From Acidobacteriaceae bacterium (lineage in GTDB: Bacteria > Acidobacteriota > Terriglobia > Terriglobales > Acidobacteriaceae): 64,000 nt of DNA. The stretch covers positions 1 through 64,000 of the forward strand of contig JASHNW010000062.1 of the NCBI GenBank assembly GCA_030041435.1, read 5' to 3'. The notes under the pieces were generated by a model. That model saw nothing but the letters and a program-made list of their open reading frames with translations, searched no databases and was not told the origin of the DNA. A program made the position numbers and the translations under genes. Shown here piece by piece: positions 6,445-63,138 of the stretch. Within the stretch, counting starts at the first letter, position 1. Every line of letters starts with the position of its first letter.

Positions 6445-6522
6445 AGGTTGACCGGTCTCCTGTCTTCCTGAGGGACAAGAGACGCCTTTCATTCACTTTC
6501 GCGCGACGAGACCCTCCTGCGC

Positions 6523-6538
6523 TGTGATAAATGTCATA
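6523..6538 (-). promoter_or_regulatory. CRP/FNR-family dyad upstream of narK
   Basis: The plus strand reads TGTGA-TAAATG-TCATA, a near-perfect two-fold symmetric CRP/FNR-type site (TGTGA-N6-TCACA). Its centre is 86 bases upstream of the chosen narK ATG. I see no strong -10 at the expected spacing. Two similar dyads lie at 7058-7073 and 12844-12859. The half-site is more CRP-like than FNR-like (TTGAT). Confidence 0.6.
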
Positions 6539-7057: not shown

Positions 7058-7073
7058 GGTGATAAATCTCACA
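7058..7073 (+). promoter_or_regulatory. CRP/FNR-family dyad upstream of the gene at 7144
   Basis: GGTGA-TAAATC-TCACA matches the CRP-type consensus TGTGA-N6-TCACA at nine of ten arm positions. CATTGT at 7095-7100 is a weak -10 whose centre is 32 bases from the dyad centre, close to a class II activator arrangement. Its left half and spacer (GTGATAAAT) are the same as in the narK dyad at 6523-6538. Confidence 0.6.
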
Positions 7074-7143
7074 TCGTTCGCTCCGGACCTCTGGCATTGT
7101 GCGTGGTACAGGGTATTCAGCCCAGGCCGAAAGGAGAAAGCCC

Positions 7144-7542: not shown

Positions 7543-7680
7543 GCGGCCGCTAATCCTGACGGGCCGTGCGGTTGATGCGGCGGTGACCTTCCGCCTCCAT
7601 CCCAGCTCAGCCTGTAGACTCGATGCGCGCGACTTTTCCTCCGTGTGGAGCGCGCAAATCAAGACGATCGAGGTTCAGGA

Positions 7681-9210: not shown

Positions 9211-9218
9211 CGAGCAGA

Positions 9219-46549: not shown

Positions 46550-46772
46550 CGAGACGTTGTCAGTGTACCGGAGCCGCGCCGCCGGTATGCGTTCAGGCGC
46601 CACGGAGCCCCGATCCGGCTGGAAAAATGCACAGCGCCTCGAGTTTTTTTACGGCTATAACGGCAACGCCGACTGATGCCGCCTTCCGCCTGTGCCGATG
46701 AAACAGGGTGACCCGTCAAAACCACCGCGTTGCGCCTGGACGAGCATTACATTCAATCTCCCGGAGCTGGTT

Positions 46773-48083: not shown

Positions 48084-49801
48084 CCAGCCTGCGCACGGCC
48101 AAGCGTTTCGTCTTTCCGCTGCTCGGGATCTGGGTGCTGCTCTACGCCTCCTTTTCCATGGTCAGGCCGCCCCTGCTCGACGGCGACGACGCTCTCAGCG
48201 CTGAGATTGCCCGCGAGATGATCACCGCTGGCCGCTGGGTCACTCCCTGCGCTAACGGCATCCGTTATGCAAAGCATCCTCCGCTGCTCTACTGGGCCAT
48301 CGCTGCCAGCTTCCACATCTTCGGCGTCAGCGACTGGGCCGCCCGCCTGCCGGTCGTCATGGCGACGCTCTTTCTCTTTATCGCCATCTTCTCCTTCGGT
48401 CGCCGTCTGTTTTGCTCTCCCCCGGCTGCCTTCTACGCTGCGCTCACCCTCATCACCTCCTACGGAGTCTTCCTTTTTGGGCATCTTCTCCTGCGCGATG
48501 TCTTCCTCTGCCTCTGGACCACGCTGGCCCTCAATTTTTTCTTCCGCTCCCTGAACCAGGAAAAGCACCGCCTGGGCACTGCGCTCGGCTTCGGTGCCTG
48601 CTGCGCGCTTGGCGTGCTCACTGAAGGACTGGCGGGTTTGGTCTTTCCGCTCGCCGTCGCATGCATCTATCTGCTCTGGACGCGCAATCTGCGCCACGTG
48701 CTGCGCTGGTATCCCTGGGCCGCCATCCTCATCTTCCTGGCCCTGTGGCTGCCCTGGCACATCGCTTCGAAAATCGCCTCTGGCCACGCCCGCCTCGAAA
48801 GCCTGATGCCCACCATGACCGGCGGCCGCGTCCCGTTGCTCGTTTTCTGGGCCCTGCTGCTCGTCGGCATCTTGCCGTGGTGCGCCTTCTCCATCCGCGC
48901 TTTGCTCATCGGCGCGTCGCCCAACCCCGAATGTCGTGGCCGGGCGCGCCTGCTTTGCCTCATTTGGATCGCGGTCGTCCTTGTGTGGTTCGGCTTTGCG
49001 GCGCGCCTTGAGTTCAACCTCCTGACCGCCCTGCCTCCCATGGCGCTGCTCGCCGGCGGCTGGCTCGCCGAAGATGAAGGTCTCCCGCACCACCAGGGAC
49101 GCATCACCGCGTGGATCCTCTTCTGCATCGGTATGGCCGCAGCCGCATGCGTCGCATACTTCCTGTTCACCGCGCCGCCGCCCGCGCCCGGCGTGGATAT
49201 TGCGACGCTGCTGCGTCCCCACCCCGGCCGCCGCCCCGTCTTCTTCGCTTACCTCTTTGACCTGTCACGCAACGCGATGGGGTTGTTCAAAATTCCGCTG
49301 GCCATCGTCCTGGCGGCGCTGCTCGCCGGCGTCTCCGGTGGCCTTTGGTATCGCCTGCGCGATAACGCCCGCATGGCCAACTTCTTCCTCGCGGGCATGA
49401 CGATTGCCATTCTCATTGCCGCCCACCTGGCGCTGAACACGTTTTCCCCGGTGCTCTCGTCCCAGATTCTCGCCGAGGCGATCAATCCTGAAGTCCACCC
49501 CTCCGACGTGATTGTCGTGAACGGCCCCTTTGAAAGCGCATCGTCTTTTGTCTTCTATCTCGAGCGGCAGGTGCTTATCCTGAACGGCAACAGCGCCAAC
49601 CGCAGGGCCGCCTCCGCAGATGCTTCCCTCTTCGTCGATGCCGCCGACGTAGCCACCCTCTGGTCCGGCCCCGGCCGCGTGTGGCTTTGGACCGCGCAGG
49701 ATACCGTGCCCTCTTTGCCCGGACAGGTCTACGTCATCGGCCGCAGCGGCGGAAAAGAAGTGATCAGCAATCAGCCGAATTCCGGCGGTGCCACTTTCTG
49801 A
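48080..49801 (+). CDS. ArnT/PMT-like glycosyltransferase (GT39-type)
   Basis: A 573-residue membrane enzyme with about 12 helices. The first extracytoplasmic loop has RPPLLDGDDALSAEIAREMI with the paired acidic residues used by GT-C enzymes, then NGIRYAKHPPLLYWAIAAS, the ArnT-family segment. It likely transfers a sugar from a polyprenyl-phosphate donor to lipid A, protein or another envelope target. The ATG overlaps the EAL/HDOD stop as ATGA. The C-terminal 150 residues form a soluble domain after the last helix. Target and sugar cannot be read from the sequence. Confidence 0.83.
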   Translation: MTSLRTAKRFVFPLLGIWVLLYASFSMVRPPLLDGDDALSAEIAREMITAGRWVTPCANGIRYAKHPPLLYWAIAASFHIFGVSDWAARLPVVMATLFLFIAIFSFGRRLFCSPPAAFYAALTLITSYGVFLFGHLLLRDVFLCLWTTLALNFFFRSLNQEKHRLGTALGFGACCALGVLTEGLAGLVFPLAVACIYLLWTRNLRHVLRWYPWAAILIFLALWLPWHIASKIASGHARLESLMPTMTGGRVPLLVFWALLLVGILPWCAFSIRALLIGASPNPECRGRARLLCLIWIAVVLVWFGFAARLEFNLLTALPPMALLAGGWLAEDEGLPHHQGRITAWILFCIGMAAAACVAYFLFTAPPPAPGVDIATLLRPHPGRRPVFFAYLFDLSRNAMGLFKIPLAIVLAALLAGVSGGLWYRLRDNARMANFFLAGMTIAILIAAHLALNTFSPVLSSQILAEAINPEVHPSDVIVVNGPFESASSFVFYLERQVLILNGNSANRRAASADASLFVDAADVATLWSGPGRVWLWTAQDTVPSLPGQVYVIGRSGGKEVISNQPNSGGATF

Positions 49802-49918
49802 ATCCCGCGCTGACCCTGCGCCCCATCTCGCACCGCGAGTATGCGCCTCATCTGGGCATAGCTTGCTTCGCACGCACCAGTCACGCCAATCCATAACAGT
49901 GGCGGTTCGCGTTGCAGG

Positions 49919-49924
49919 TATACT
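49919..49924 (+). promoter_or_regulatory. Candidate -10 box for the S9 peptidase gene
   Basis: TATACT is a five-of-six -10 match. Transcription would start near 49931, just ahead of the AGGAG at 49941. No clear -35 is seen at 16-18 bases. Confidence 0.4.
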
Positions 49925-49952
49925 GCGGGCACCCTTTTTCAGGAGAACGCCC

Positions 49953-52025
49953 GTGAAGCTGGCCAAGTCGTCCCTGCTGGTGACTCCTCTGCTCGTTTTC
50001 GCCCTTACCCACGCCCAGACCACCTTCAGCGCGCGAACCCCGACCATCGATCAGTCGCTGGAAATGCATACCGTCTCGTCTCCGCAAATATCCCCCGATG
50101 GCACGCGTGTCATCTACGAGCAGTCGCGCACAAACTGGGACGCCGACGAGTTCGATACCGATCTGTGGATTGCCGATATCGTGACCCACGAGAGTCATCT
50201 GCTGACCGCGCAGGCGAAGTCCTCGTCGGATGCCGCATGGTCGCCGGACGGCCGCTGGATTGCCTTCCTTTCGGACCGGCCGGGCATTCTGAACGGTTCG
50301 CCCGCCGGCAAGCAACAGCTCTACGTGATGCCCGCCGGCGGCGGCGAGGCGCAGCAGCTCACAAAGATGGACGACGGTGTCGAAGGATTTGACTGGGCGC
50401 CGGACTCCGCGCGGATTGCCATTGCCGCCGTCGCACCGGAGACCAAAGCAATGAAAGACCGCAAGGACACCTTCGGCGACTATCAGGTCATTCGCGCAGA
50501 CTATCGCATGGTGCATCTCTGGCTCATCGCGCTGCCGAAGGTGGATGCGGCCGGCCGCGTCACGCCGCCGCAGGAGCCGAAGCTGCTTACTTCCGGCGAT
50601 GCTTTCAGCGTAGGTGACTTTCGCTTCTCGCCAGACGGCACAATGATCGCCTTCAGCGCGCAGCGCGATCCCGACCTCATCTCCGGGTTCTCGAGCGACA
50701 TTTACACCGTGACTGTTGCCGATGGGGTGGTGAAGAAAATCGTCGCCACGCCCGGCCCGGATAATCATCCTGAGTGGTCACCGGACGGAAAACAAATTGC
50801 CTACGAAACCTCCGACGGCAGCAAATATTTCTTTTATACCAATCGCAGGATTGCCGTGGTCTCCAGCGAAGGCGGCACGCCGCGCGTGCTCACAGGTGGA
50901 TTCGACGAGGACGCGAGCCTGCTCCGCTGGGGTCCCGCGGGGATCTGCTTTTCGGCGCTCCAGAAGATGAAGGCCTCATTGTTCCTGCTCGACCCGCAAA
51001 GCGGAGCAGTTCGGCAGCTGGCGATGCCGGGTTCGGAGGTCGCGACGCAGTTCTCCTTCTCCCGGGACTTCCGGCACGCGGCGTACCGCGGAGCCGGACC
51101 GAATGAATTCACGGAGATCTATGCTGCCGATTTTCCTTCCGGAACGCCCACACAACTAACCCACGCGGGAGAACAGCTGGCTGCATTCGATACCGCCAAA
51201 CGCGAGGTAGATCGCTGGAAGTCCTCCGACGGGACGGAGATCGAAGGCGTTTTGTACAAACCCGCGAACTTCGACCCGGCGAAGAAGTATCCGCTGCTGG
51301 TTGTGATTCACGGCGGGCCCACCGGCATCGACATGCCCGTGATCAATCCGGATCGTTACTATCCCATCGAGCGCTTTGTGGCGCGCGGAGCGCTGGTGCT
51401 GCGTCCGAACTATCGCGGATCGGCCGGCTACGGCGAAAAATTCCGCTCGCTGAACGTCCGCAACCTCGGTGTCGGCGATTATGCCGACGTGATTTCCGGC
51501 GTCGATTCCCTCATCGCGAAGGGGTTCGTGGACAAGGACCGAGTAGGCGCGATGGGCTGGAGCGAGGGCGGCTATATATCGGCCTTCATCTCCACATCAA
51601 GCGATCGCTTCAAAGCGGTGTCGGTTGGCGCCGGTATCTCCGACTGGATGACCTACTACGTCAACACCGACATTACGCCCTTCACTCGCCAGTATCTGCA
51701 CGCAACGCCATGGGAGGACCCCGCGATTTACGCGAAGACCTCACCCATCACCTACATCGCGCACGCGCAAACACCCACGCTGATCCAGCAGGGCAGCGCC
51801 GACCACCGCGTCCCGGTGCCCGACTCTTTCGAACTCCGCCAGGCCCTCGAAGACCATGGCGTGCCGGTGAAGATGGTCCTCTACGATGGCTTCGGGCACC
51901 CCATCAACAAGCCGAAACAGCAGCGCGCCGTGATGGAAGAAAACGAAAACTGGTTCGCCCATTACATCTGGGGTGAGCCGCTGGCCGAGTCGCTGACACC
52001 GATCTCGAAACCGGCGAAACCCTGA
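49953..52025 (+). CDS. Prolyl oligopeptidase family (S9) peptidase
   Basis: A 690-residue exported serine peptidase, probably cleaving short peptides in the periplasm. A signal peptide (LAKSSLLVTPLLVFALTHAQ) is followed by a beta-propeller of PD40/WD-like repeats (about 30-410; repeated SPDGRWIAF and SPDGTMIAFSAQ) and the alpha/beta hydrolase domain. The triad is Ser537 (GWSEGGY), Asp617 (GSADHRVPVPDS) and His649 (DGFGHPINKP). The start is GTG with AGGAG ten bases upstream; longer frames lack the signal. It is alone on the plus strand, convergent with the FG-GAP cluster 13 bases away. Acylaminoacyl-peptidase and dipeptidyl-peptidase activities are both possible. Confidence 0.92.
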   Translation: MKLAKSSLLVTPLLVFALTHAQTTFSARTPTIDQSLEMHTVSSPQISPDGTRVIYEQSRTNWDADEFDTDLWIADIVTHESHLLTAQAKSSSDAAWSPDGRWIAFLSDRPGILNGSPAGKQQLYVMPAGGGEAQQLTKMDDGVEGFDWAPDSARIAIAAVAPETKAMKDRKDTFGDYQVIRADYRMVHLWLIALPKVDAAGRVTPPQEPKLLTSGDAFSVGDFRFSPDGTMIAFSAQRDPDLISGFSSDIYTVTVADGVVKKIVATPGPDNHPEWSPDGKQIAYETSDGSKYFFYTNRRIAVVSSEGGTPRVLTGGFDEDASLLRWGPAGICFSALQKMKASLFLLDPQSGAVRQLAMPGSEVATQFSFSRDFRHAAYRGAGPNEFTEIYAADFPSGTPTQLTHAGEQLAAFDTAKREVDRWKSSDGTEIEGVLYKPANFDPAKKYPLLVVIHGGPTGIDMPVINPDRYYPIERFVARGALVLRPNYRGSAGYGEKFRSLNVRNLGVGDYADVISGVDSLIAKGFVDKDRVGAMGWSEGGYISAFISTSSDRFKAVSVGAGISDWMTYYVNTDITPFTRQYLHATPWEDPAIYAKTSPITYIAHAQTPTLIQQGSADHRVPVPDSFELRQALEDHGVPVKMVLYDGFGHPINKPKQQRAVMEENENWFAHYIWGEPLAESLTPISKPAKP

Positions 52026-52038
52026 GCTCTTGCCGCCG

Positions 52039-53898
52039 TCAGCGCTCGAAGTTCGGCGAAAAATCGATCGGCCTCGCGCTGACGATGCCTTTGCCTTCAT
52101 CCACCGTGATGAACTGGTTCGCCGCCACCCGCCCCAGCGATTCCTTCCGCCCACTCGGCCAGGCAATCTCGACATCTGCCGTCTTTCCCGGTGCGGGCTT
52201 GCCGAGGCCGAACGTCAGCGGAAACTCGCTTTGCGACAAGTAGCTGGAGCCAGTCTTCACCCATTGCACCATCTTCGCGCCGCTCGCCGTCGTCACCGTC
52301 ACCCGCGCGCCAATCGCGTCCCGATTCGACTTCGTCCCCACCAGCTTCATGCGCAGCATATCGTTCTGATTCCCATTGTCGTTGCGCAGCAGCCGCGCCG
52401 GACCGTTGTTGACATTCACCACGATGTCCAGATCGCCGTCGTTGTCGTAATCCAGATACGTCGCTCCGCGCGCCACCATTGCCTCGCGCATCGCCGGGCC
52501 CACTCGGTCCGACATATTCTCGAATTTGCCGCCGCCTCGGTTACGAAACAGCAGCGGCGGCTCCGCATAATGCAGACTGGGCTGCAGTACGCTGATGTCG
52601 TCGGCCACATGGCCGTTGGCAGCGAAGATGTCGGGCAAACCGTCGAGGTCGTAATCGAAGAAAAACACGCCGAACGTGAGCACGCGCGCCGAGGGCTCGG
52701 CCAGACCCGACGGAATCGCCTGATCGAGAAACAGTCCGCCGCCCTGGTTTTGATACAGCGACAGGCTCTCGTTCGTGAAATTGCCGATCGCCAGGCTTTG
52801 CCGGCCTGAACCGTCGTAGTCCGCCGCGTCAGTGCCCATACCGGCGCGCGCTTTGCCCGCGTCGTTGTATGCCACGCCCGCCGCAAAGCCTATCTCCGTA
52901 AAGGTCCCGTTGCGATTGTTCTTCCACAGCTTGTTCGGCTGCGTATCGTTCGTCACGAACAAACTGAGCCAGCCATCCTGATCCAGATCGACGAGCGCAA
53001 CCCCCAGCGACTTGCTTGTCGGATCGTAGAGACCGGCCTTCTTCGTCACGTCCTCGAACCGCCCGTTGCCCAGATTGCGATAGAGCCGCGCACTTTCTCC
53101 TTTGTAGCGCTCGGGCGTGCAGTAGGACTTGTGCGTTCCGTCGAGCGTACAGAACTGATCGGTCGCAGCCGACCACTCCACGTAGTGCGCGACAAACAAA
53201 TCCAGCCTGCCGTCGTGGTCGTAGTCGAACCACACTGCACTGGCGGGGAAGCCGGAATCTGCCACGCCTGCCTTTGCTGTCACATCGGCAAATCGCCCGT
53301 TGCCCTGGTTATGAAACAGGTGGCTGCCGCCGATAGCCGTAATGTAGATGTCGTCGTAGCCATCGTTGTCATAGTCGCCGACAGCGCAGCCCATTCCGTA
53401 CATTTCCACATCCAGGCCCGCCTGCTTTGTCACATCGGTGAATGTGCCGTCGTGGTTGTTGTGGTAAAGCGCGGGGGTAGTGCGGCGCGTCTTATGCCCC
53501 GGCCAGTCGGTCCCGTTCACAAACAGAATGTCCGGCCATCCGTCGTTGTCGTAATCGATTACGCACACGCCCGAGCCCATCGTCTCCGGCAGATACTTTT
53601 TGCCGAACCCGCCGTTGTTATGCCGGAAGTGAATGCCGGCCTGCGCGGTAACGTCGGTGAAGGTAATGGGTCCCGAAGGCCGCGGGGCTGCAGAAGCCAC
53701 GGCTGTCGGGGCGCTGGAAATGCCCGGTTGTGCGGACGGCTCGGTCGCCGCGGAGTGCGCCGCCGGTGTGGCAGTCTCTGTTTTCGGAGCGGCGGAATTG
53801 GATTTGCACCCGGCAATCTCCAGCGCAAGCAAGGCCGCCACAGCCAGCCAGTGTCTTGAAAAGCGGATCCAGGATGAATTCGAGCGGCGGACCGGCAT
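52039..53898 (-). CDS. FG-GAP/ASPIC-UnbV (CRTAC1-type) lipoprotein
   Basis: A 619-residue exported lipoprotein. The signal ends in the lipobox LEIAGC. A run of FG-GAP/VCBS repeats fills most of the protein, each with a DxDxDGxxD calcium-type loop (YDNDGWPDILF, YDNDGYDDIYI, YDHDGRLDLFV, LDQDGWLSLFV), folding as a beta-propeller. The C-terminal ASPIC/UnbV domain (about 510-600) includes NRDAIGARVTV and DVEIAWPSGRKESLG. Function of this domain pair is not established. It is the last gene of a four-gene cluster, separated from the RnfD-like gene by two bases. Confidence 0.85.
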   Translation of the reverse strand: MPVRRSNSSWIRFSRHWLAVAALLALEIAGCKSNSAAPKTETATPAAHSAATEPSAQPGISSAPTAVASAAPRPSGPITFTDVTAQAGIHFRHNNGGFGKKYLPETMGSGVCVIDYDNDGWPDILFVNGTDWPGHKTRRTTPALYHNNHDGTFTDVTKQAGLDVEMYGMGCAVGDYDNDGYDDIYITAIGGSHLFHNQGNGRFADVTAKAGVADSGFPASAVWFDYDHDGRLDLFVAHYVEWSAATDQFCTLDGTHKSYCTPERYKGESARLYRNLGNGRFEDVTKKAGLYDPTSKSLGVALVDLDQDGWLSLFVTNDTQPNKLWKNNRNGTFTEIGFAAGVAYNDAGKARAGMGTDAADYDGSGRQSLAIGNFTNESLSLYQNQGGGLFLDQAIPSGLAEPSARVLTFGVFFFDYDLDGLPDIFAANGHVADDISVLQPSLHYAEPPLLFRNRGGGKFENMSDRVGPAMREAMVARGATYLDYDNDGDLDIVVNVNNGPARLLRNDNGNQNDMLRMKLVGTKSNRDAIGARVTVTTASGAKMVQWVKTGSSYLSQSEFPLTFGLGKPAPGKTADVEIAWPSGRKESLGRVAANQFITVDEGKGIVSARPIDFSPNFER

Positions 53899-53900
53899 CT

Positions 53901-54776
53901 CTATTGGGCCATCTCCGGACGAAGCTGCGGGACCGGGGCCAACCGGCGCTTACGCCGTGCGTCGATCCACATTTCGATCAGCAGCGCCGGCGGTCCCACC
54001 ACAAACAGCGCGTACAACGGAGCATACACACTCTGATCCAGACGCATCAGAAACTCCACCACAGCCACGGCGACCGCCACAGCGCACTGCCCTTTTCTGG
54101 ACTTCAGCGTCGTCTTCGGGTCGGTAATCATAAAGAACATAAACAGCTGATACATCGGCCCGGTAATCGGCGCGACTTCCGACTGCCACGGATCGCCGGT
54201 GATATGCGCGCGCAGCAGCGCCAGAAGAAAAAATGACACCACGTAGGTCGCGGTGATCTGGAAGCGCTTCGCCCGCCAAAGAATCAGCGAGCCCAGGATC
54301 CAGATGACAATGAGCGCAGCAAAGTTGTTGCCCCATTGAATGCTCAGCCCCGCCACCGACTCCGACGCCAGAAACAGCAGGGCGCAGATGCCGAAGTTCG
54401 ACGGATTGAAGAGATGGCGGCCGCGCAGGCGCACAGCGTATTTCGACGTGATGGAAAGCGCCGCGCACAGCGCAAAGGGCCAGAACGCCGGTGAACGCAG
54501 CAGAATCCCCACGCTGATGCCGGTGATGTAAGCACTGGAGGGATGCGGCCACTTCCCCAGGAAAATCCTGCCCAGCGCCATTTCTGCCACAATCGCGGTG
54601 ACAATTGCCAGCAGCGTCTTCTGATAGCTCTCCAGGATCCCGAACGACAGGTTGCCGGCAAGCAGAATCAGCGTGATGAACACCGGCGGCATGAAGCGGC
54701 TGTCCAGCACGCGCTTCCACAAAACCGGCCTCGGCGGCGCGCCGGCTGGCGGAGCGGTAATCGCCGGCAAATTCAT
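53901..54776 (-). CDS. RnfD/NqrB-like membrane protein, shortened
   Basis: A 291-residue protein with about nine membrane helices. PSSAYITGISVGILLRSP, RHLFNPSNFGICALLFL and LFMFFMITDPKTTLKSRKGQ match conserved positions of RnfD/NqrB, including the TDP segment (218-220). It is shorter than RnfD (about 350 residues), and the SGAT-type sequence where FMN is normally bound to threonine is not seen between residues 150 and 215. So it may not be flavinylated. The ATG at 54776 overlaps the upstream CRTAC1 stop by four bases. No rnfABCGE or nqr genes are near. It is flanked on both sides by FG-GAP proteins. Confidence 0.75.
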   Translation of the reverse strand: MNLPAITAPPAGAPPRPVLWKRVLDSRFMPPVFITLILLAGNLSFGILESYQKTLLAIVTAIVAEMALGRIFLGKWPHPSSAYITGISVGILLRSPAFWPFALCAALSITSKYAVRLRGRHLFNPSNFGICALLFLASESVAGLSIQWGNNFAALIVIWILGSLILWRAKRFQITATYVVSFFLLALLRAHITGDPWQSEVAPITGPMYQLFMFFMITDPKTTLKSRKGQCAVAVAVAVVEFLMRLDQSVYAPLYALFVVGPPALLIEMWIDARRKRRLAPVPQLRPEMAQ

Positions 54777-56563
54777 GATGGCTCCTTCACGCGGACGAGT
54801 TGGTTGGGCGTGAGATTCTCGAGCCTCTGCACGATACCCGACGGCCATCGAATCACCGCCTTCTCGATCTCTGGATTTTTGCCCAGCCCGAAGTGCAGCC
54901 GTCGCGCGTTTTCCGACGCAAATCCGCTGGCTCCCATCACCGCCTGCACCTGCTCCTTGCCGTCCCAATACAGCGTAACCTGCGCGCCGATGGCACTGCG
55001 ATTGCTTTTTGTTCCTTCCAGCAAAAACTCGATCCAGTCATTCTCCGGCGCCACTACGTTCTTATAGATCAGCAGCGGCCCGCCCTGGTTCGCCACGACC
55101 GCATCGAGCGCGCCGGTGTTCCACAGGTCGGCCAGTGCGATGGCTCGCCCGTCGTATCGATCCGTTACCCCAACCGCCTGTGCCACGTCGATGAATTTGC
55201 CCGCGCCATCGTTGATCCACACCTTCTTCTGCTGATAGCCCGACAGACTGCGTCCGTCGAATGCCGGCCAGTGCGACGCATCGCTGATGATCGAACTGTT
55301 GCCGCCCGCCACCTTCGAAAAGTCGTACCAGTAGCTGCGCGTCTTCGAGGCCGAAATGTACCCGTTCTCCAAAAACAGGTCCAGGTTGCCGTCGTTGTTC
55401 AGGTCGCCGAACTGCGCCCCGAAGCTCCAGCCACCCAGTTCCACGCCAAGGTCCCGGGCCAGGTTGTCGTAGTGCAGCGTCTTGCCGTCCTGCGGAACCC
55501 ACAAATTGTTTCCCTGAATCAGCACGCCTTCTTCGGAAATATTCGAAACGTAGATCGAATACTTCCCCTGATCGAAAATGTCACCGAAGGCCGCGTTCAT
55601 CCCGCTCTTCGGCGCAAAGCCAACTCCGGTTTCCTGTCCCGCCTCGTGGAAGTGGCCGTGATCGTTCAGATACAACTCCGACACGCCGTAATCGTTAGCC
55701 ACAAACAGATCGGGATAGCCCGTTCCCTCTAGGTCCGCGGCCGCGCAGGCCAACGCCCAGCGCCGACTCTTGATACCAGCCTTCTCGCTCACTTCCTCGA
55801 AGTGGCCGTTGCCCAGATTGTGGAACAGATATTTGCGCCCGCCGTTATCGGCATACTCGAAACTGTCCGGCATCATGCGCGTGTTCTTCAGATGCCACAG
55901 GTTCACGTCTTCCGGATAGTAGCCGCCAACAAAAAGATCGAGCTTGCCATCGTCGTCGTAGTCGAGCCACGTCGCCGTATTGGCGTTGATCCATGCCGGC
56001 AGCCCCGCCTGCGCGGTTACATCGGTAAATCCCTGGCCATGATCGTTGTGAAACAGCATCGGCTTGCCCCACTTGATCAGAAACAGATCTTCATAGCCGT
56101 CGTTGTCGTAGTCGCCCCACACCGCGCCCATGGAAACGCCTGTCCCCGGCTTGTTTACATCGGCGATGCCCATCTCAGGGGCCACGTCCGTGAATGTGCC
56201 ATCGTGGTTGTTACGATAAAGGTGGTTCATGCTGCCGGTGCGGCTGTTCGTCACATAAATATCCGGCCACCCATCCCGGTTGTAGTCCACAATGGACACC
56301 GACGCCCCCATCGATGCCACTTCCGGCATAATGCCGGCCAGTTTCGGATCGAGCACCGGCGCCTCATGGACAAAATGAATACCTGCCTGCTGCGACACTT
56401 CCTGGAAGCAGAAACCGTAACGCGCCAGTGCCGACTGGCAGCTCAGTTCGCCGGCCTGCGCGGTTCTCCGCTGCGATGAGAGCCGCCGCATGATCGCGGG
56501 CATTGCCAGCATGCCAAGGAAGAACACCCAAAGAACGATGTGAGCCACAGGGCCACGCTTCAT
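54773..56563 (-). CDS. FG-GAP/ASPIC-UnbV (CRTAC1-type) protein, membrane-anchored
   Basis: A 596-residue protein with an N-terminal hydrophobic anchor (VAHIVLWVFFLGMLAMPAIM) and no lipobox. FG-GAP loops (YNRDGWPDIYV, YDNDGYEDLFL, YDDDGKLDLFV, LNNDGNLDLFL) build the propeller. The C-terminal ASPIC/UnbV domain has SNRSAIGAQVTLY and AVIRWPSGIVQRLENLTPN. It overlaps the RnfD-like gene by four bases and the large lipoprotein gene upstream by four, so the three are translationally coupled. Architecture is close to the protein at 52039-53898, suggesting paralogs that flank the membrane protein. Confidence 0.85.
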   Translation of the reverse strand: MKRGPVAHIVLWVFFLGMLAMPAIMRRLSSQRRTAQAGELSCQSALARYGFCFQEVSQQAGIHFVHEAPVLDPKLAGIMPEVASMGASVSIVDYNRDGWPDIYVTNSRTGSMNHLYRNNHDGTFTDVAPEMGIADVNKPGTGVSMGAVWGDYDNDGYEDLFLIKWGKPMLFHNDHGQGFTDVTAQAGLPAWINANTATWLDYDDDGKLDLFVGGYYPEDVNLWHLKNTRMMPDSFEYADNGGRKYLFHNLGNGHFEEVSEKAGIKSRRWALACAAADLEGTGYPDLFVANDYGVSELYLNDHGHFHEAGQETGVGFAPKSGMNAAFGDIFDQGKYSIYVSNISEEGVLIQGNNLWVPQDGKTLHYDNLARDLGVELGGWSFGAQFGDLNNDGNLDLFLENGYISASKTRSYWYDFSKVAGGNSSIISDASHWPAFDGRSLSGYQQKKVWINDGAGKFIDVAQAVGVTDRYDGRAIALADLWNTGALDAVVANQGGPLLIYKNVVAPENDWIEFLLEGTKSNRSAIGAQVTLYWDGKEQVQAVMGASGFASENARRLHFGLGKNPEIEKAVIRWPSGIVQRLENLTPNQLVRVKEPS

Positions 56564-59500
56564 CGCTGCATCGCCCCCTGGCTCGCGCCATTCTCATCGT
56601 TCAGAGCATTGCGAAACGGATCCGGCGTCACGTAGCGCGTCTGCCACGTCAGCCAGTCATCCGGATGATGCCGATAAACCCATTCGTCCTCGAGCGGCGC
56701 AGGTGGCGTGTCGTACTCCGTCCGCGCGTGATATGGCAGCGGCAACACTGTGGCCGAATCCGTCGAGTTGTAGTCGCCGTCCTTGATCCATCCATCGCCG
56801 GCGATCACGAAATCGCGCACCCATCCCGCAGGCGGCGGAGCAGGAGCTGGGAACTCGAGCGCGAGTTCGTCCCCCGCATTCATAATCACGTACCGATCGT
56901 CCACCTTCCTGAGCAGCTCGCGCACGTCGCCGTAGCGCGTGTAGTAGCCTTCGAGATCCCGCCAGATCTGCGTAGTCGACGCAATTTGGTTGTAGTCCGG
57001 AATCTCAGGCGATGACGCATTGGGCTGATGAATGACGGAATATCCGCGATAGTGCAAATCGGCCAGCGACGGCGCAATGCGGGTGATCTTCAGTGGCGTC
57101 TCCGGCAGCCCCCGCGCCCACTGGATCTGATCCCAGTAGATTTCGAGGTTCGTCCGCAGCCGCACCTTGCGCGGCGTTCCTGGCCGGAAGATCCCGGTCA
57201 GATCGATCAGGCAAATTTTGTTGCGGCCCGCGGGGAATCCCAGATTCGGCCGCACCGTGACCCATCCGCCGCGGCCGTCGGGTACTTCGAGGCTCAGCGG
57301 CTGTGGCTGCTCGTGATGCCCCTGGCTCAGCGCCACATTGATCGACGAGTCCGACGGGTGCAGCCACCCGCGCGCAATCAGGTACAGCGGCCCTGTCGCC
57401 GGCACATCGTCGCCCAGGTCGATCTCCACATAGTGATCGCGCGTAATGCCCTGGTACTGCCCGCGCCCAAACGTGTCGAGATACTTCCCGTCGAGCGATC
57501 GCAGAATCCCTGTCACGTCGTTGCCGCGGTCGTCCACGGCGCGTGCAATCGCATGCGGCTCATCGGTCGCGGTAATGGCGAGCTTCACCGGCGGCACTAC
57601 AAAACGTTCATCGGTGAACACCTCGGTCCCCGCCGGATGATCCACCGTCATCATCTCCAGCCAGTCGTAGTAATACGTCTCCCACAGCTCGCCGGTGATG
57701 CGCAGATCGTACGCGCTGTCGCGCGCCACAAGATCGTTGCGCGGAATCTTGTACCACTCCTGCGTCGCCGCGATGCGCGCCGGCCCCAGCGCGTTGATGC
57801 GCAGCCCGATCGCCGATCCCCACGGCACCGTGTCCTTCACAAACTTGAATTCCTTGCCGTCCCACGTAAAGAGAAACGGACACGATCCCTTCAGCCGCTG
57901 CTGCGCCAGCACTTCCTGGTCGGCGTGCAGCTGGAACTCCGCGTTGACCGTCCCATTAGGCCACAGGATCCGCGCCACATCCGTCTCCGTCCACGTACCG
58001 AGGCCGAAGTGCTCTTCCGGCCCGGTGATCGCCTGCGCCTGCAGCAGCAGCCCCGAGCGAATCTCCACCACGCCGCCGACCCCGAACGAATTGATGCGCT
58101 GGTCCCCGGTCGCCTGCACTGCGCGCGTGCGAATCGTCTGCCAGTGGTAGTTCTTCGTTCCCTGATTGACGGCTTTCACGGGATGTCCGTTCGCGTCGAG
58201 GCCCAGCAAATCCAGGCGCCCCGTATCATCCACATCCGCCGCCGCAAACACCTGCTCCGGCTCTGCGGGATGCTCCATCGGGACGTACGAGCCGTTCGGT
58301 TTCTCCAGCCAGATCAGCGTGCCCACCTCCGGATGCGTTGTTCCGGCCTGTTCCAGAATGAAATCGACCCCGCCGTTATTGTCCAGGTCCGCCATCCCCA
58401 GTCGAACCGGTCCGTTGAGAGCCCGGGCAGGATAGGGAACCCGCGCCAGCACAGTCGTCGACCATGCGCCGTGATCGTCCACCATGCGTGCAATCGATCC
58501 ATCCGTCAGCACCGCCAGCAAATCGAGCCTGCCGCTGTGACGTGTGTCTGCCGCTGCAATGGCCTTCACCGCTCCGCCGCCAACCGGCTGCGCAATCTCA
58601 CGAAACACGCCCGCGCGCTCGTTGTGGAACACGTGCAGATGCCCCGCGGCATCGATCAGTGAAGCATCGGGATTGCCGTCGCCGTCGAGATCCGCCCACA
58701 CAAACTGTCGGACTCCCGAGACGCCGGCAAATGGATGGATCGGCGTAAACGTCCCGTCGCCGTTGTTGCGCAGCACCGTGGGCAGCCCGCTCTCCGCACC
58801 CAGAACGATGTCGAGGTCGCCATCCGCCTCGATGTCGACGCCCCACGCGCCCGTCCAGTCGCCGTGCAGGATTGACTGCGGCAGCTTCGTCTCCGCCGTC
58901 ACATCGGTGAATTTTTGCGGCGAGTCCTGGCGCAGGAAGCGCACCCCGCCGGCGCCGGCCAGCACCAAATCCGTCTTAAAGTCGTAATTGAAGTCCACCG
59001 GCAGCACAGATTCCGGACCCGGAGCAATCGCCTTCGCTCCCCCGGGAAAGGCAAACGACGGGCCACCTGCCAGCTGCACGGTCTTCGCATTCGCTGTCAT
59101 CACCACCGGCGCATGCGAATCGCCGAGCCACACCGCGCCGATCCAGTCCCACGTCTGATTCTGTGGATTCGCCAGCATCTCAGGCACGAACTTCATGGCC
59201 ATGTCCGGCGCGGACGGCTGCCGCCACGGCACAGCCATGGCCAGGAAAGTTACAAACGGCTCCGCCTCTTCGCCCGGCGCCGCATGGATCGCCGCCACCT
59301 CCTGGCGAAATGCCGGAAGCTGCATCAGCACGTTCTTGAGAAAGATGCTTCGCGTGGCTGCCATCTGCGGAGGTCCGCTCGCCGCAGCCGCCTGCAAATC
59401 CGCCAGCCGCTGCTTTGCATCCGCGGGCCAGTTCGCCGACTGCTCCGCGATCCGGGCCATCGCCTCATGCAGGGTCGCCGCATCGCCGCGTTTGGCTGCG

Positions 59501-60057
59501 ATCCGGCTCAACTCCAGCAGAGCTGCCAGGTTCGTGGGCTGCTCCGCCAGAATCTGTTGCATGATCTGCTCGAACTCAGCTGCGCTGTCCGCCGCGTCCT
59601 GCCGCTCGATCTCCTGCGCCAGGGAGTATTGCATGCGCGCATTGCGCGGTTCGAGCGCCAGCGCCCGGCGAAAATAGCCGATAGCTGCGGCGGAATTCCC
59701 GCGGTCGCTCTCCAGCAGGCCGAGCATATATTTGATGCGCGCATTGTCCTGCGCCAAAGTCTCTGCGCGATCCAGCCGCTGCTGCGCCAGGTCGTAGTTG
59801 CGTTGCCGCAGCGCCAGAATGCCCCAGTCTGCCCATGCCGCCGGCTCTCCCGGAGCCAGCTTCGCCGCCTCGCCAAGCGACACGTCGGCGAGCGCATCGT
59901 TGCCTACCTGCAGCGCCGCCAGCCCCACATAAAATGCCCGGATGAACTGCGTGTATTGCGGCGACCGCGCCGAGGGCAGATCGGAGTGGCAACCCACGGT
60001 CAGCAGCACGGCCAAAGCCAGCGCCGCACTCAGCCGCTGCCGAACCCTCGCCTGCAT
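56560..60057 (-). CDS. Large TPR/FG-GAP/ASPIC-UnbV lipoprotein
   Basis: A 1165-residue exported lipoprotein. MQARVRQRLSAALALAVLL precedes the lipobox LLTVGC. The next 250 residues are TPR-like helical repeats (AAWADWGILALRQRNYDLAQ, AIGYFRRALALEPRNARMQY). A propeller with FG-GAP loops follows (FNYDFKTDLVLA, IEADGDLDIVLG, LDGDGNPDASLI, VDDTGRLDLLGL). An ASPIC/UnbV region (INSFGVGGVVEIRSG, VARILWPNGTVNAEF) comes at about 660-760. A final domain of about 400 residues starts at GSCPFLFTWDGKEFKFVKDT and is rich in beta strand and aromatic residues; I do not recognise it. The ATG at 60057 gives the best signal length; a TTG 45 bases upstream has a ribosome-binding site but adds polar residues. It is first in the cluster. 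Confidence 0.82.
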   Translation of the reverse strand: MQARVRQRLSAALALAVLLTVGCHSDLPSARSPQYTQFIRAFYVGLAALQVGNDALADVSLGEAAKLAPGEPAAWADWGILALRQRNYDLAQQRLDRAETLAQDNARIKYMLGLLESDRGNSAAAIGYFRRALALEPRNARMQYSLAQEIERQDAADSAAEFEQIMQQILAEQPTNLAALLELSRIAAKRGDAATLHEAMARIAEQSANWPADAKQRLADLQAAAASGPPQMAATRSIFLKNVLMQLPAFRQEVAAIHAAPGEEAEPFVTFLAMAVPWRQPSAPDMAMKFVPEMLANPQNQTWDWIGAVWLGDSHAPVVMTANAKTVQLAGGPSFAFPGGAKAIAPGPESVLPVDFNYDFKTDLVLAGAGGVRFLRQDSPQKFTDVTAETKLPQSILHGDWTGAWGVDIEADGDLDIVLGAESGLPTVLRNNGDGTFTPIHPFAGVSGVRQFVWADLDGDGNPDASLIDAAGHLHVFHNERAGVFREIAQPVGGGAVKAIAAADTRHSGRLDLLAVLTDGSIARMVDDHGAWSTTVLARVPYPARALNGPVRLGMADLDNNGGVDFILEQAGTTHPEVGTLIWLEKPNGSYVPMEHPAEPEQVFAAADVDDTGRLDLLGLDANGHPVKAVNQGTKNYHWQTIRTRAVQATGDQRINSFGVGGVVEIRSGLLLQAQAITGPEEHFGLGTWTETDVARILWPNGTVNAEFQLHADQEVLAQQRLKGSCPFLFTWDGKEFKFVKDTVPWGSAIGLRINALGPARIAATQEWYKIPRNDLVARDSAYDLRITGELWETYYYDWLEMMTVDHPAGTEVFTDERFVVPPVKLAITATDEPHAIARAVDDRGNDVTGILRSLDGKYLDTFGRGQYQGITRDHYVEIDLGDDVPATGPLYLIARGWLHPSDSSINVALSQGHHEQPQPLSLEVPDGRGGWVTVRPNLGFPAGRNKICLIDLTGIFRPGTPRKVRLRTNLEIYWDQIQWARGLPETPLKITRIAPSLADLHYRGYSVIHQPNASSPEIPDYNQIASTTQIWRDLEGYYTRYGDVRELLRKVDDRYVIMNAGDELALEFPAPAPPPAGWVRDFVIAGDGWIKDGDYNSTDSATVLPLPYHARTEYDTPPAPLEDEWVYRHHPDDWLTWQTRYVTPDPFRNALNDENGASQGAMQR

Positions 60058-60341
60058 GGCGCGTCTCGTCTCTGCTTCAGTTCCGGAGTATTTCTTTTGC
60101 AAGATCTCCTGCCGCTCGCGTCGCGATGTTGTTCTATTGTAGAGACTCGCCGGCAGGCATTTCTCTTCCCGCGTGCAGAACGCTGCTCACTCTATCGCAT
60201 CCACAACTCCGCTGTCGTCCTGTCGGAGTTTGATCTCGCCCTCAATCTTCCGACGGAGGCATGGCCCGCCACGTATGCGCCTCGCCAGGAGGAGACAAAA
60301 ATCCATCTTTAGTTGGTTGACTCCGCCGGCACCGTCCCGGC
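60058..60341. other. Divergent intergenic region
   Basis: About 280 bases between the FG-GAP cluster and the plus-strand barrel gene. On the minus strand TACAAT at 60136-60141 is a five-of-six -10 for the cluster, giving a start near 60129, but no good -35 precedes it. Nothing else is recognised. Confidence 0.4.
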
Positions 60342-61190
60342 ATGCTTGCGAAACCCATGCTCAAAGCCTCCGCTACCTGGTTCCTTCTTCTGGCCGCTGC
60401 CGTTGCTGCTCCGGCCCAGAGTAACTTCTTCAATAAGTGGGAAGCTCGCACCGCCGCCACGCAGTCCAAACAGCCCCCATGGCCTCCGCCTCTCGCAACA
60501 ACCTATGTCGGGCTCATTCAGGTGTACCGCACGGACTTCAGCCGGCAGATCAGCCCCACCCACGTCACCACGTGGAACTACGACAGCAGCAAGGGACTGA
60601 ACCTGATTCCCTGGGCCAGGACCGAGTTCGACTTCAACCTGCCACCGTTTATCACACACAGTAGTCCGAAGACGATCGATGGCGCCGGCGATACGTCGTT
60701 CCTCGGTAAGTACCGGATTCTCAGCGGCAATAGCCAGCACGGAAATTACGTGGTCAGCGCCTTCGTCTCCAGCACCATCCCGACGGGCAGCTACAAGAAT
60801 GGCACTCCCGTCGCGACGGTCGGCCCCGGACTGGGCGTGGGCAAAGGCTTCGGACGCTTCGATGTGCAAACCACACTCAGCGCCACGCTGCCCACCGGCG
60901 AAACCCCCAAACTTGGACGCCCGGTTGCGTGGAATACGGCGGGACAGTATCACCTGGGCAAGTATTTGTGGCCCGAACTGGAGTTCAACGCGACCTACTA
61001 TCACGGCGGCCCGAATGACGGTAAGTCGCAGGCCTTTATGACGCCCGGTCTGCTGGGGGTCCACAAGCTGCGCCCCAGCGTTGAGTCCAGCCGCCTGGTC
61101 CTCTGCCTCGGAGGTGGCGTGCAGATCGCCACCAGCCAATTCCACACCTACAACCACGGGCTTCTCTTTACCGGGCGCCTGGTCTTCTGA
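60342..61190 (+). CDS. Outer-membrane beta-barrel-like protein
   Basis: A 282-residue exported protein. A signal peptide (KASATWFLLLAAAVAAPAQS) is followed by alternating strands typical of a small barrel: YVVSAFVSSTIPTGSY, VQTTLSATLPTGETP, LWPELEFNATYYHGG. It ends LLFTGRLVF with a terminal Phe, as barrels do. It resembles proteins annotated as MetA-pathway phenol degradation or transporter-like barrels, with the SFLGKYRILSGN segment matching. No substrate can be assigned. It lies divergent to the FG-GAP cluster and upstream of rplU with about 240 bases between. Confidence 0.7.
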   Translation: MLAKPMLKASATWFLLLAAAVAAPAQSNFFNKWEARTAATQSKQPPWPPPLATTYVGLIQVYRTDFSRQISPTHVTTWNYDSSKGLNLIPWARTEFDFNLPPFITHSSPKTIDGAGDTSFLGKYRILSGNSQHGNYVVSAFVSSTIPTGSYKNGTPVATVGPGLGVGKGFGRFDVQTTLSATLPTGETPKLGRPVAWNTAGQYHLGKYLWPELEFNATYYHGGPNDGKSQAFMTPGLLGVHKLRPSVESSRLVLCLGGGVQIATSQFHTYNHGLLFTGRLVF

Positions 61191-61250
61191 TCGAGCTGTG
61201 CGGCGGCGCTCAGCATCTCCCCTGCGGCTCCGGCGCCGCAGGCGCGCTGG

Positions 61251-61279
61251 TTGACCACCACCGCCGTTCCCGATAAACT
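61251..61279 (+). promoter_or_regulatory. Sigma-70-type promoter for rplU-rpmA
   Basis: TTGACC (61251-61256) and TAAACT (61274-61279) are separated by exactly 17 bases. Transcription should start near 61286, giving a leader of about 145 bases before rplU, long enough to hold regulatory structure, though no known leader RNA is recognised. Confidence 0.7.
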
Positions 61280-61430
61280 AAATTGGTTTGGCGATTCTGC
61301 CCGTCCCGTGTGTCCCCGGGGCTTCTCTGGCGGTTGGCAGGCTGGAGAGACGCAAGGTATCTGCCCAGCACAGTTTACTGCAGCGCGCCGCCGGTTTGCC
61401 GGTTTCAGCGTTTTGCGCGCCGGAGGGTTT

Positions 61431-61754
61431 ATGTACGCCGTCATTCGCACTGGTGGTAAGCAGTACCGGGTCGCTCCCGGCGATGTGGTCAGGGTCGAGT
61501 CCGTCTCGGCTGCCGAGAATGGCTCAGTCGAGTTCGCCGACGTTCTGGCCTTTTCCGGAGACTCCGGCTCGCTGGTGAAGCCGCAGTCGGCCAAAGTGCT
61601 CGGCACCGTGGTTGCCGAAGGCCGCGGCGATAAGATCCTGGTCTTCCATTTCAAGCGCAAGAAGCAGTACAAAAAGCTCCAGGGTCACCGCCAGGGCTTC
61701 ACCCAGGTGCGCATCAGCGAAATTCAGGTGGACGGCAACAGCTACACCGCCTAA
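61431..61754 (+). CDS. rplU: 50S ribosomal protein L21
   Basis: A 107-residue ribosomal protein. MYAVIRTGGKQYRV and the basic segment FKRKKQYKKLQGHRQGFTQV are the L21 signature. GGAGGG lies just upstream of the ATG. It forms an operon with rpmA 51 bases downstream, the usual order; obgE, often third, is elsewhere in the window. Confidence 0.97.
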   Translation: MYAVIRTGGKQYRVAPGDVVRVESVSAAENGSVEFADVLAFSGDSGSLVKPQSAKVLGTVVAEGRGDKILVFHFKRKKQYKKLQGHRQGFTQVRISEIQVDGNSYTA

Positions 61755-61805
61755 CCGGCGATCAAATTTTGTGTCCGCCGCACGCGGACCTCAGGAACAG
61801 CACAG

Positions 61806-62069
61806 ATGGCACACAAAAAAGGTTTAGGCAGCTCCAGGAATGGCCGCGATTCCAACGCACAGCGCCTCGGCGTCAAGATTTTCGCGGGCCAGATCGTCAC
61901 CGGCGGCTCCATCATCGTGCGCCAGCGCGGCACGAAGCTGAAGCCCGGCCTTAACGTCGGCCGCGGCAGCGACGATACGCTTTTCGCCAAAATCGATGGC
62001 CGCGTCAAGTTCATCGATCGTGGCCGCACCGGGCGCTTTGTCGCCGTCGAGCCGGCCGCAGCCGAATAG
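61806..62069 (+). CDS. rpmA: 50S ribosomal protein L27
   Basis: An 87-residue ribosomal protein near the peptidyl transferase centre. [20 protein letters not shown] is the L27 N-terminus, here without the Firmicute-type cleaved extension. [19 protein letters not shown] is the central signature. It follows rplU. Confidence 0.97.
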
Positions 62070-62195
62070 CCCCCGCTTCATCGCCTCACCAGGCTGGGCT
62101 CCAGTGAGTTCGGCGTTTTTCACTTCCTGAGAAAGGCTGCGGCAGCCCCGCCTCCGACACCTCGATTTCCATCGCAGGCCAGCCTCCGGGCCCCT

Positions 62196-63062
62196 TCAGG
62201 ATGCTCGCTGTGTCGGTCCTGGGCCGGCGCCCTCCGGTGGCTTCGATTCCAGCCTGTGCACGATGAGGGGCCGTGTCAGGGCGCTGTGAGCAATCCGATC
62301 CCACATCCGAAGTGTGTCGCTCCACCGAAAAGCCGTGGCCACCTCCTCCGGAAGGAAAGCATAGGCGGTCAGCAGGAGCAGGGCTCCGTACGTGGCCCCC
62401 TCCTGCGCCAGGTTCGTCCACCCGCTCACTCCGGCGACGTGAAACCACGACGTGATCAGCGTCATGGAGGGTTCGATGCAAAGTCCGGCCAGCAGAGCGA
62501 ACAGGCGGCTTCTCAGGGTAAGCCCCAGGCGCAGTCCGAGAGCCGTAACGAACCCGATCGGCAGCAACTGAGCCAGACCGATGGCGCCAGTGAAACGAAA
62601 AAGCGCAATCGGGACTCGGTGCGTCGAGAGCGTCAGTGGCACCCCGATGGCATCCGGAATGGTCAGGAGGATCCCCGCGGCAACGATCCAGCGGTAGCCC
62701 GTCTCGCCCAGCGTCAGGAGCCCGGAAAGCGGGCTCAGCAGATGCCTCAGCACCGCCCGGCCAACGCGGAACAGATACCCCATCACCACGAAGTAGCCCA
62801 GCCAATAGCCGCAAACATAGAGCCATGCCGAGTGCAACCACCTGACAGCGAAGAACTGCGGAGCATAGGTCAACACAAGGAACCAAAGTGCAAAACCGAA
62901 GCGCGCGATCAGGTAATCGCCAACTTCCGGGAGAAACTGCCTGCGGCTGCGTTTTCTGCAGGCGGCGAGAACCCCGAAGATGGCCGCCGGTTCACCTAAT
63001 TCGAGAGGGCGCAGGATCAGTTGAGAGTGTGTGAAGCGTCCGATACCGGGCAGAAGAAACAT
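62196..63062 (-). CDS. Uncharacterised multi-pass membrane protein
   Basis: A 288-residue protein with about seven membrane helices and a polar C-terminal tail. The family is not recognised. YLIARFGFALWFLVLTYAPQ, VCGYWLGYFVVMGYLFRVGR and LRLGLTLRSRLFALLAGLCIEPSMTL (shown in parts) correspond in order and spacing to segments of the protein at 63139-64000, so the two look like paralogs. The ATG at 63062 has no strong ribosome-binding site. A sensory or receptor-like role is possible from topology, but nothing shows it. Confidence 0.65.
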   Translation of the reverse strand: MFLLPGIGRFTHSQLILRPLELGEPAAIFGVLAACRKRSRRQFLPEVGDYLIARFGFALWFLVLTYAPQFFAVRWLHSAWLYVCGYWLGYFVVMGYLFRVGRAVLRHLLSPLSGLLTLGETGYRWIVAAGILLTIPDAIGVPLTLSTHRVPIALFRFTGAIGLAQLLPIGFVTALGLRLGLTLRSRLFALLAGLCIEPSMTLITSWFHVAGVSGWTNLAQEGATYGALLLLTAYAFLPEEVATAFRWSDTLRMWDRIAHSALTRPLIVHRLESKPPEGAGPGPTQRAS

Positions 63063-63092
63063 CGTCAAACAGTCGAGGCTGTCGTCAAAACG

Positions 63093-63117
63093 AAAAGCCC
63101 CGGATTCCGGGGCTTTT
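63093..63117 (-). terminator. Rho-independent terminator
   Basis: AAAAGCCCCGGA and TCCGGGGCTTTT form a perfect 12-base inverted repeat around one base, with A-run and T-run flanks, so it could act on both strands. On the minus strand it lies 22 bases after the stop of the gene at 63139. Confidence 0.85.
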
Positions 63118-63138
63118 CTGTCGGGAATTGCGCGGGCT

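Follow-up and report, generated by a model that had tools for sequence, protein, structure and literature searches.

What does a bacterium do with a small membrane protein of the RnfD/NqrB fold when it encodes it amid propeller proteins of the cell envelope? The question is raised by a 64,000-nucleotide stretch of Acidobacteriaceae DNA (contig JASHNW010000062.1 of assembly GCA_030041435.1, positions 1 to 64,000; hereafter the window), in which four genes, here denoted G1 to G4 in the order of transcription, follow one another on the minus strand. An earlier note on this DNA had proposed them as a candidate undescribed four-gene envelope system that might move electrons or a substrate. We find that three of them, G1-G2-G3, are a conserved cell-envelope unit, kept together across several bacterial phyla, and that G2 and G3 appear, from trees and gene order, to trace to a common ancestral gene pair with E4 and E5 of the enediyne cassettes.

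The four genes are intact open reading frames (ORFs), positioned and spaced as the earlier note had them: four bases overlap at G1/G2 and again at G2/G3, and a two-base gap separates G3 from G4. In Pfam, G2 and G4 match FG-GAP_3 and UnbV_ASPIC, both over the cut-off, and thus belong to the CRTAC1/ASPIC_UnbV family; G1 matches TPR and FG-GAP_3 (three stretches), with UnbV_ASPIC below threshold. The AlphaFold model of G1 (predicted local distance difference test, pLDDT, 83.6) resembles murine CRTAC1 (Z 31.4, root mean square deviation 3.1, 419 residues aligned, model range 285 to 1030) but adds TPR and C-terminal parts; this and the later structure comparisons cover Foldseek's own candidates, and folds outside that list are possible. 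The passages of the literature that we examined assign no function to bacterial members of this family. FG-GAP proteins are common in the window's genome, which has 138 FG-GAP_3 matches, so that a lone CRTAC1 gene beside G3 would be unremarkable.

The case for a unit, against a chance arrangement, comes from its conserved order. A survey of 297 genomes of the phylum with G3 as query (E 1e-5) returned 34 matches in 33 genomes, of which 14 are close, namely that of the window and 13 more with 57-73% identity, and the other 20 distant (25-34%). G1, G2 and G3 stand together in all 12 uncut close loci, the window included, the remaining 2 of the 14 being cut by contig ends. A GTDB scan gave 301 G3 relatives, from which the best 80 were chosen by G3 similarity, some of them from the same genomes as the phylum survey; genes outside the window were called with simple home-made scripts. 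Sixty-seven of these 80 loci are labelled acidobacterial, and the rest include Planctomycetes (Aquisphaera, Rhodopirellula), Latescibacteria, Armatimonadetes, Rhodothermia and Bacteroidetes, as well as four Proteobacteria-labelled metagenome-assembled genomes. Wherever there is room, G2 adjoins G3 (77/77 loci) and G1 lies upstream of G2 (69/69), figures that, being drawn from the best 80 of 301 relatives, do not extend to more distant ones. Four-base overlaps are possible at 51 of 69 G1/G2 and 65 of 76 G2/G3 junctions under a lenient test that takes the start nearest the stop. The tree distances of G1, G2 and G3 also correlate with each other (r 0.84-0.89 in a mirror-tree sample of 53 of the 80 loci), a level that none of 500 permutations reached.

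G4 does not share this constancy. It is adjacent downstream in 46 of the 67 loci having more than 2.5 kb downstream; in the 37 sampled loci that contain it, its tree distances correlate with those of G1-G3 at r 0.51-0.73, against 0.76-0.84 among G1-G3 themselves; and its origin differs across loci in the CRTAC1 tree. Given this variability and mixed origin of G4, we take the core to be three genes, and the four-gene system of the earlier note shrinks accordingly. The predicted barrel-type protein encoded beyond G1, which that note had offered as a possible outer-membrane part, has no Pfam or NCBIfam match, and its homologue (56% identity) stands upstream of G1 in one of the 80 loci (L105), so we rejected it as a component. 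The flanking peptidase gene was likewise set aside, with partial matches in two loci only (L134 and L145), and the two genes beyond it have no match among the listed neighbours of the 80 clusters.

G3 matches PF03116 at 40.9 bits (cut-off 27.7), and its AlphaFold model (pLDDT 82.5) aligns with RnfD and NqrB at Z 19.4-21.5. The earlier note is thus borne out in its RnfD/NqrB-related membrane protein, and by the conservation above in its multi-gene envelope system. The absence of Rnf or Nqr partners, also claimed, holds as well. G3 is the sole PF03116 match in the window's genome, PF02508 (RnfA/E, NqrD/E) has none there, and tblastn with RsxA, B, C, G and E against loci L033-L149 found nothing at E 0.001 (RnfB, RnfC, RnfG, NqrA, NqrC and NqrF were not searched genome-wide); we therefore reject a true Rnf or Nqr set. 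According to passages of PMC12174285, RnfD and NqrB carry a flavin mononucleotide (FMN) bound covalently to a Thr close to the periplasm, and further towards the cytoplasm a riboflavin. The stretch in which these subunits hold the long FMN-Thr loop spans 28 residues in G3 compared with 102 in Escherichia coli RsxD, and the long loop is missing in the alignments. The window's genome also has no ApbE match (control genomes were positive in 7 of 14), and we reject covalent FMN on G3 on these two grounds. Passages of PMC8238504 describe NQR/RNF-like flavinylated gene clusters, in which the membrane protein bears an NqrF-type domain; these resemble the present unit in tying an RnfD/NqrB-type membrane domain to extracytosolic proteins, and differ from it in that G3 lacks an NqrF-type domain and its genome an ApbE match.

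The riboflavin site has fared otherwise than the FMN loop. Passages of PMC10643135 name Thr162, Asn200, Asn203 and Asp346 as the NqrB side chains that touch riboflavin, Asp346 through a hydrogen bond. Mapped by alignment via RsxD, they correspond in G3 to Thr or Ser 85, His121, Asn124 and Asp219. In an alignment of 53 G3 sequences (78 of the 80 translations passed a stop and length filter, 66 were left after an 88% filter, and 52 of these were joined to that of the window), the last three are invariant and position 85 is Thr in 33 and Ser in 20; the corresponding G1 alignment took 36 of 55 usable sequences plus the window's. Judged by these alignments, the riboflavin pocket of G3 is mostly kept, with one consistent change (Asn to His), and G3 is predicted most likely to bind riboflavin or a similar flavin non-covalently.

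The same fold could also belong to a channel or transporter that moves a product, substrate or halide, with the propellers receiving it outside. The G3 model matches urea transporters (Z 10.9-12.2) and Amt/Rh proteins (Z about 10-11.6), and passages of PMC12174285 and PMC10643135 state the kinship of the RnfD/NqrB fold to urea and ammonium channels and transporters. Loss of the FMN loop takes away the known electron route, and an ABC importer accompanies the cluster in some loci, as described below. A plain channel, however, would need none of the riboflavin-contact residues, which are largely kept in the sampled G3, E5 and other small relatives, and we consider this reading unlikely.

The relatives of G2 and G3 lead to the enediyne cassettes. 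In trees, G2 groups with E4 (UnbV) and G3 with E5 (UnbU), and the gene order is the same, a CRTAC1/ASPIC protein followed by a small RnfD-like one. With RsxD as the root, a FastTree tree unites G3 and E5 in a clade with support 0.998, with one unassigned protein (L063) falling beside E5; RnfD-like relatives associated with DUF2330, ApbE or a redoxin lie apart from this clade. For G2 the evidence is an IQ-TREE tree of 29 sequences, in which a split with bootstrap 99 sets G2 and E4 against four other CRTAC1 proteins together with G1 and G4; as it lacks an outgroup and has a long E4 branch, this tree carries less weight than that of G3. The two pairs further share the NPSN and DPxT motifs, the absence of the FMN loop and a His at the position of NqrB Asn200. 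In six sampled E5-type proteins, L063 counted, the His, Asn and Asp of the pocket are all kept, and the Thr is replaced by Gly in L062 and by Pro in L063.

Enediyne clusters provide the known setting for the E4-E5 pair. Passages of PMC5181780 give E3, E4, E5, E and E10 as the genes common to ten enediyne clusters compared in 2016; we read the assignment of letters to proteins off the C-1027 record. The C-1027 plasmid (SGLP1, NZ_CP013739.1) encodes two DUF1702 proteins, a CRTAC1 protein, an RnfD-like protein and a polyketide synthase (PKS), and Streptomyces clavuligerus a DUF1702 protein, a VCBS-repeat protein, UnbU and a PKS. The C-1027 E4/E5 pair is presumably SgcE4 and SgcE5. The distant G3 matches were viewed as loci L046-L065, for a few of which Pfam supplied the names of the neighbours, and two of these acidobacterial loci are of the enediyne type. 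L060 has DUF1702, CRTAC1, RnfD-like and type I PKS (1926 amino acids) genes and, about 0.9 kb further, a thioesterase-like ORF recognized by eye only; the order CRTAC1, RnfD-like, PKS is that of the C-1027 plasmid. L065 has CRTAC1, RnfD-like, DUF1702, PKS (1921 amino acids) and thioesterase genes, with enough space ahead of the PKS for one more gene, and its thioesterase matches 4i4j (an ACP-polyene thioesterase, which we take to be SgcE10), DynE7 and CalE7 at 1e-38 to 1e-35. A third acidobacterial locus, L062, has a partial cassette of this type, recognized by its RnfD-like gene, which a long PKS-like ORF follows.

The window cluster is not itself such a cassette. Its genome has no DUF1702 (E3) match, and neither have two other genomes (G217 and G139), with controls G152 and G257 positive. 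No PKS-sized ORF occurs at the cluster, the largest ORF overlapping 46000-64000 being that of G1 (1180 amino acids). The cluster also adds the TPR/propeller protein G1, and G2 and G3 are 26-30% identical to E4 and E5. As for the system being undescribed, the open-access literature yielded no description of the G1-G2-G3 gene set among the matches listed, and UnbV/UnbU together with enediyne were not found there. The gene set may therefore still be called undescribed in that sense; the proteins are not wholly so, because G2 and G3 group with E4 and E5.

Around the best 80 G3 loci, clustering of neighbouring proteins brought out three partners, all usually downstream and convergent: A, a flavoenzyme of the Trp_halogenase family; B, an Asn_synthase-domain, asparagine-synthetase-like protein; and C, a radical SAM protein that is RaSEA-like below the cut-off. 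The three occur together in 33 of the 80 loci, or in 31 of the 56 with at least 6.5 kb downstream. The nearest solved relatives of A are PltM and tetracycline 7-halogenase (1e-37 to 1e-41 over most of its length), and PDB sequence searches found nothing for B at E 0.001 or for C at E 0.01. CGxKxGF and WxWxIP are motifs with roles in flavin-dependent halogenases. A, which is encoded outside the window, keeps the Lys of the former in 48/48, but the latter is altered: in the 45 of 47 in which the stretch was found, Leu is followed by Arg, Gln or His.

The association reaches beyond gene neighbourhood. At E 1e-20, 9 of the 14 genomes that have a close G3 contain A, compared with 19 of the 283 that lack one (Fisher test, 2.3e-7), and for C the figures are 9 of 14 and 21 of 283 (4.6e-7), values that genome relatedness inflates, as the test ignores shared ancestry. 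Within the window's own family, five genomes with a close G3 have both A and C, 20 listed genomes without a G3 match have neither, and neither is present in G257, whose G3 is of the enediyne type. In the window's genome the locus is split: B-C-A lies with a G1 paralogue on contig C87, and a PERM-ATP-PERM-SBP-HMA-DUF169 set on contig C105, both unlinked to the contig of the window. That the partners are kept although the locus is split argues for a functional tie. In one genome (G125, locus L172), B, C, A, G1, G2 and G3 follow in that order on one strand, with four-base overlaps at B/C, C/A, A/G1 and G2/G3.

Two further modules recur near the unit. An ABC transporter of the SsuA/NMT1 type lies near 19 of the 80 loci, often with HMA and DUF169 genes, and an H-YtkA-NapH-type-F set near 20, with the NapH-type gene 18 times on the strand of G1 and at most 1.5 kb upstream of it. 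No locus had both (Fisher test, 0.001, 53 loci), but mutual exclusivity is not established, because only some 4.7 kb can be seen upstream of G1 and either module takes up most of that.

The second module bears on the electron-moving idea of the earlier note in its pure form, by which G1-G3 would link the quinone pool or the cytosol to exported proteins and the biosynthetic neighbours would be incidental. This would suit the fold and the riboflavin-pocket residues of G3, the NapH/MauN-type Fe-S membrane protein of that module and the ApbE or redoxin genes that adjoin some G3 relatives. The NapH-type gene is absent at E 1e-20, however, from the window's genome and from 12 of the 14 close-G3 carriers, its co-occurrence with G3 in the phylum sample is not significant (2/14 versus 11/283), G1-G4 contain no CxxCH haem motif, the genome lacks an ApbE match, and A and C accompany close G3 clearly more often than the background would give. 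We find a pure conduit improbable. The idea as such is partly supported by the fold and the pocket; the recurrent neighbours include enzymes of cytosolic and biosynthetic appearance, which suggests a biosynthetic role as much as electron export.

The domain make-up of G1 could instead indicate that G1-G3 is a platform with a structural or chaperone role, which anchors some other exported enzyme or helps it to mature and has no catalysis of its own. TPR and propeller modules, joined in G1, are typical of scaffolds, and three CRTAC1-type proteins are present. The recurrent neighbours, however, brought out no one exported client that is kept along with the cluster, and A and C are missing from 5 of 14 carriers; we regard a platform as very unlikely.

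Several observations concern genes akin to these components (Table 1). The window's genome encodes a full-length G1 paralogue (29% identity), divergent beside B-C-A, and in L084, L088, L089 and L115 there are G1-like matches on the far side of B. Seven loci have small proteins composed of heptad repeats with Asn-Gln (xNQxxIx) near the cluster, directly after G3 in two, which may be precursor peptides or coiled coils. Among the wider RnfD-like proteins, small ones with Asn rather than His at the pocket position adjoin ApbE in two loci, others stand next to DUF2330-type proteins or in fusion-like long ORFs in five (DUF2330 confirmed by Pfam in L048 and L049), and in one case, on a plasmid of Metabacillus, an RnfD-like gene whose product is 35% identical to G3 shares an overlap with a redoxin-domain gene.

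Table 1 Features of the window and of related loci, with coordinates on each stretch (residue numbers for domains).
Feature	Locus	Coordinates	Strand	Description
G1	window	56560..60057	-	1165 aa; lipoprotein-type signal LTVGC (by eye from sequence)
G1, TPR array	window	residues about 33-257		
G1, propeller	window	residues about 285-720		CRTAC1-type propeller and ASPIC-like part
G1, C-terminal region	window	residues about 720-1145		beta-rich
G2	window	54773..56563	-	596 aa; membrane-anchored CRTAC1 (FG-GAP and UnbV_ASPIC) protein; one N-terminal hydrophobic helix (by eye)
G3	window	53901..54776	-	291 aa; small polytopic membrane protein, RnfD/NqrB fold
G3, HLFNPSN	window	54396..54416	-	residues 121-127; holds His121 and Asn124
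G3, QWGN	window	54327..54338	-	residues 147-150; in the stretch where RnfD/NqrB hold the long FMN-Thr loop
G3, Asp219	window	54120..54122	-	aligns with NqrB Asp346
G4	window	52039..53898	-	619 aa; CRTAC1-family lipoprotein, signal EIAGC (by eye); accessory
Barrel-type protein	window	60342-61190		predicted
G1 paralogue	L067 (G000:C87)	5883-9380		window's own genome
Enediyne-type cassette	L060	5604-16724		acidobacterial
Enediyne-type cassette	L065	607-11350		acidobacterial
Enediyne-type cassette, partial	L062	1-6460		acidobacterial
RnfD-like gene with ApbE	L059	7658-9440		Asn at pocket position
RnfD-like gene with ApbE	L061	7731-9420		Asn at pocket position
RnfD-like gene, DUF2330-type or fusion-like	L048	7198-9379		
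RnfD-like gene, DUF2330-type or fusion-like	L049	8602-10805		
RnfD-like gene, DUF2330-type or fusion-like	L050	8635-10791		
RnfD-like gene, DUF2330-type or fusion-like	L052	7139-9370		
RnfD-like gene, DUF2330-type or fusion-like	L054	8543-10777		
Redoxin-domain and RnfD-like genes	L176	3300-4687		Metabacillus plasmid
Heptad-repeat gene	L171	9276-9461		
Heptad-repeat gene	L172	3840-4046		
Heptad-repeat gene	L121	4061-4567		
Heptad-repeat gene	L092	4003-4269		
Heptad-repeat gene	L113	580-852		
Heptad-repeat gene	L125	931-1215		
Heptad-repeat gene	L139	781-1491		

By analogy with E4/E5, we propose that G1-G2-G3 may serve a biosynthetic pathway on its membrane side, as a flavin redox or handling station that works as that pair does, and give this mechanism a probability of roughly 0.4. 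The polytopic G3 would partner the membrane-anchored propeller G2 and the TPR/propeller lipoprotein G1, with G4 as an accessory propeller where present, and we infer that the three form a physical complex that would perform or power a redox or handling step on a small biosynthetic product. G3 itself would be a non-covalent flavoprotein or a channel, with the propellers as its outer partners, and electron transfer could be one form of its action. The pathway served would have as its cytosolic part the halogenase-family flavoenzyme A, the radical SAM protein C and the asparagine-synthetase-like ligase B, often with a putative supply module alongside, either the SsuA/NMT1-type ABC importer with HMA and DUF169 proteins or the NapH-type Fe-S protein with YtkA.

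A number of points weigh against this proposal. One genome (G199, locus L159, contig G199:C4) has a G1-like protein (45% identity) beside A-C-B and several CRTAC1 genes and has no G3 match, so that G1 can exist without G3, a counterexample to strict linkage of the two. The trio A-B-C is not obligatory, as both A and C are missing from 5 of the 14 close-G3 genomes (G075, G149, G181, G197 and G235); the co-occurrence tests are inflated as stated, the A and C found in genomes without a close G3 count against exclusiveness, and 3 of 8 such loci that were fetched (L158, L163 and L165) adjoin housekeeping-looking genes. Halogenation by A is not assured, since the Pro of the WxWxIP motif is missing in all 45. 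The low identity of E4 and E5 to G2 and G3 and the unrooted CRTAC1 tree with its long E4 branch tell against the comparison with the enediyne pair. Finally, NqrB Asn200 is replaced by His in every G3 and E5 protein sampled, and this change, together with the loss of the Thr in the E5 of L062, makes a different ligand possible.

A wider proposal would see in the UnbV-UnbU pairs the common catalytic centre of membrane machines of an undescribed class, in which a small RnfD/NqrB-fold flavoprotein without covalent FMN and CRTAC1 propellers would act on halogenated or activated biosynthetic intermediates; one lineage would have been taken into enediyne biosynthesis, and the other, present in Acidobacteriota, Planctomycetota and further phyla, would serve a pathway that includes a halogenase-family enzyme. 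We hold this to be doubtful. A di-iodinated enediyne intermediate has reportedly been described by Gui et al. in 2024, to judge from the title as it stands in a reference list; resting on that title, the parallel with a halogenase partner is a lead only. If the wider proposal is true, E5 would act either in flavin-dependent redox chemistry or as a channel that handles halides.

E4 and E5 are a poorly understood pair in the clusters that make enediyne anticancer antibiotics, and passages of a 2022 paper (PMC8725005) give the steps to the enediyne core as mostly unknown, although later work may differ. The sister system described here, wide and not of the enediyne type, also occurs in cultured bacteria, among them Silvibacterium bohemicum S15, Acidipila rosea DSM 103428 and Acidicapsa dinghuensis 4GSKX (loci L083, L120 and L127), whose records are not metagenome-assembled genomes, and it offers a new route to the function of the pair. 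Both the G2-G3 and the E4-E5 lineages keep a riboflavin-type pocket without the FMN loop, which makes the role of the pair directly testable. For the soil bacteria that carry it, G1-G2-G3 with its recurrent neighbours outlines a multi-module envelope pathway.

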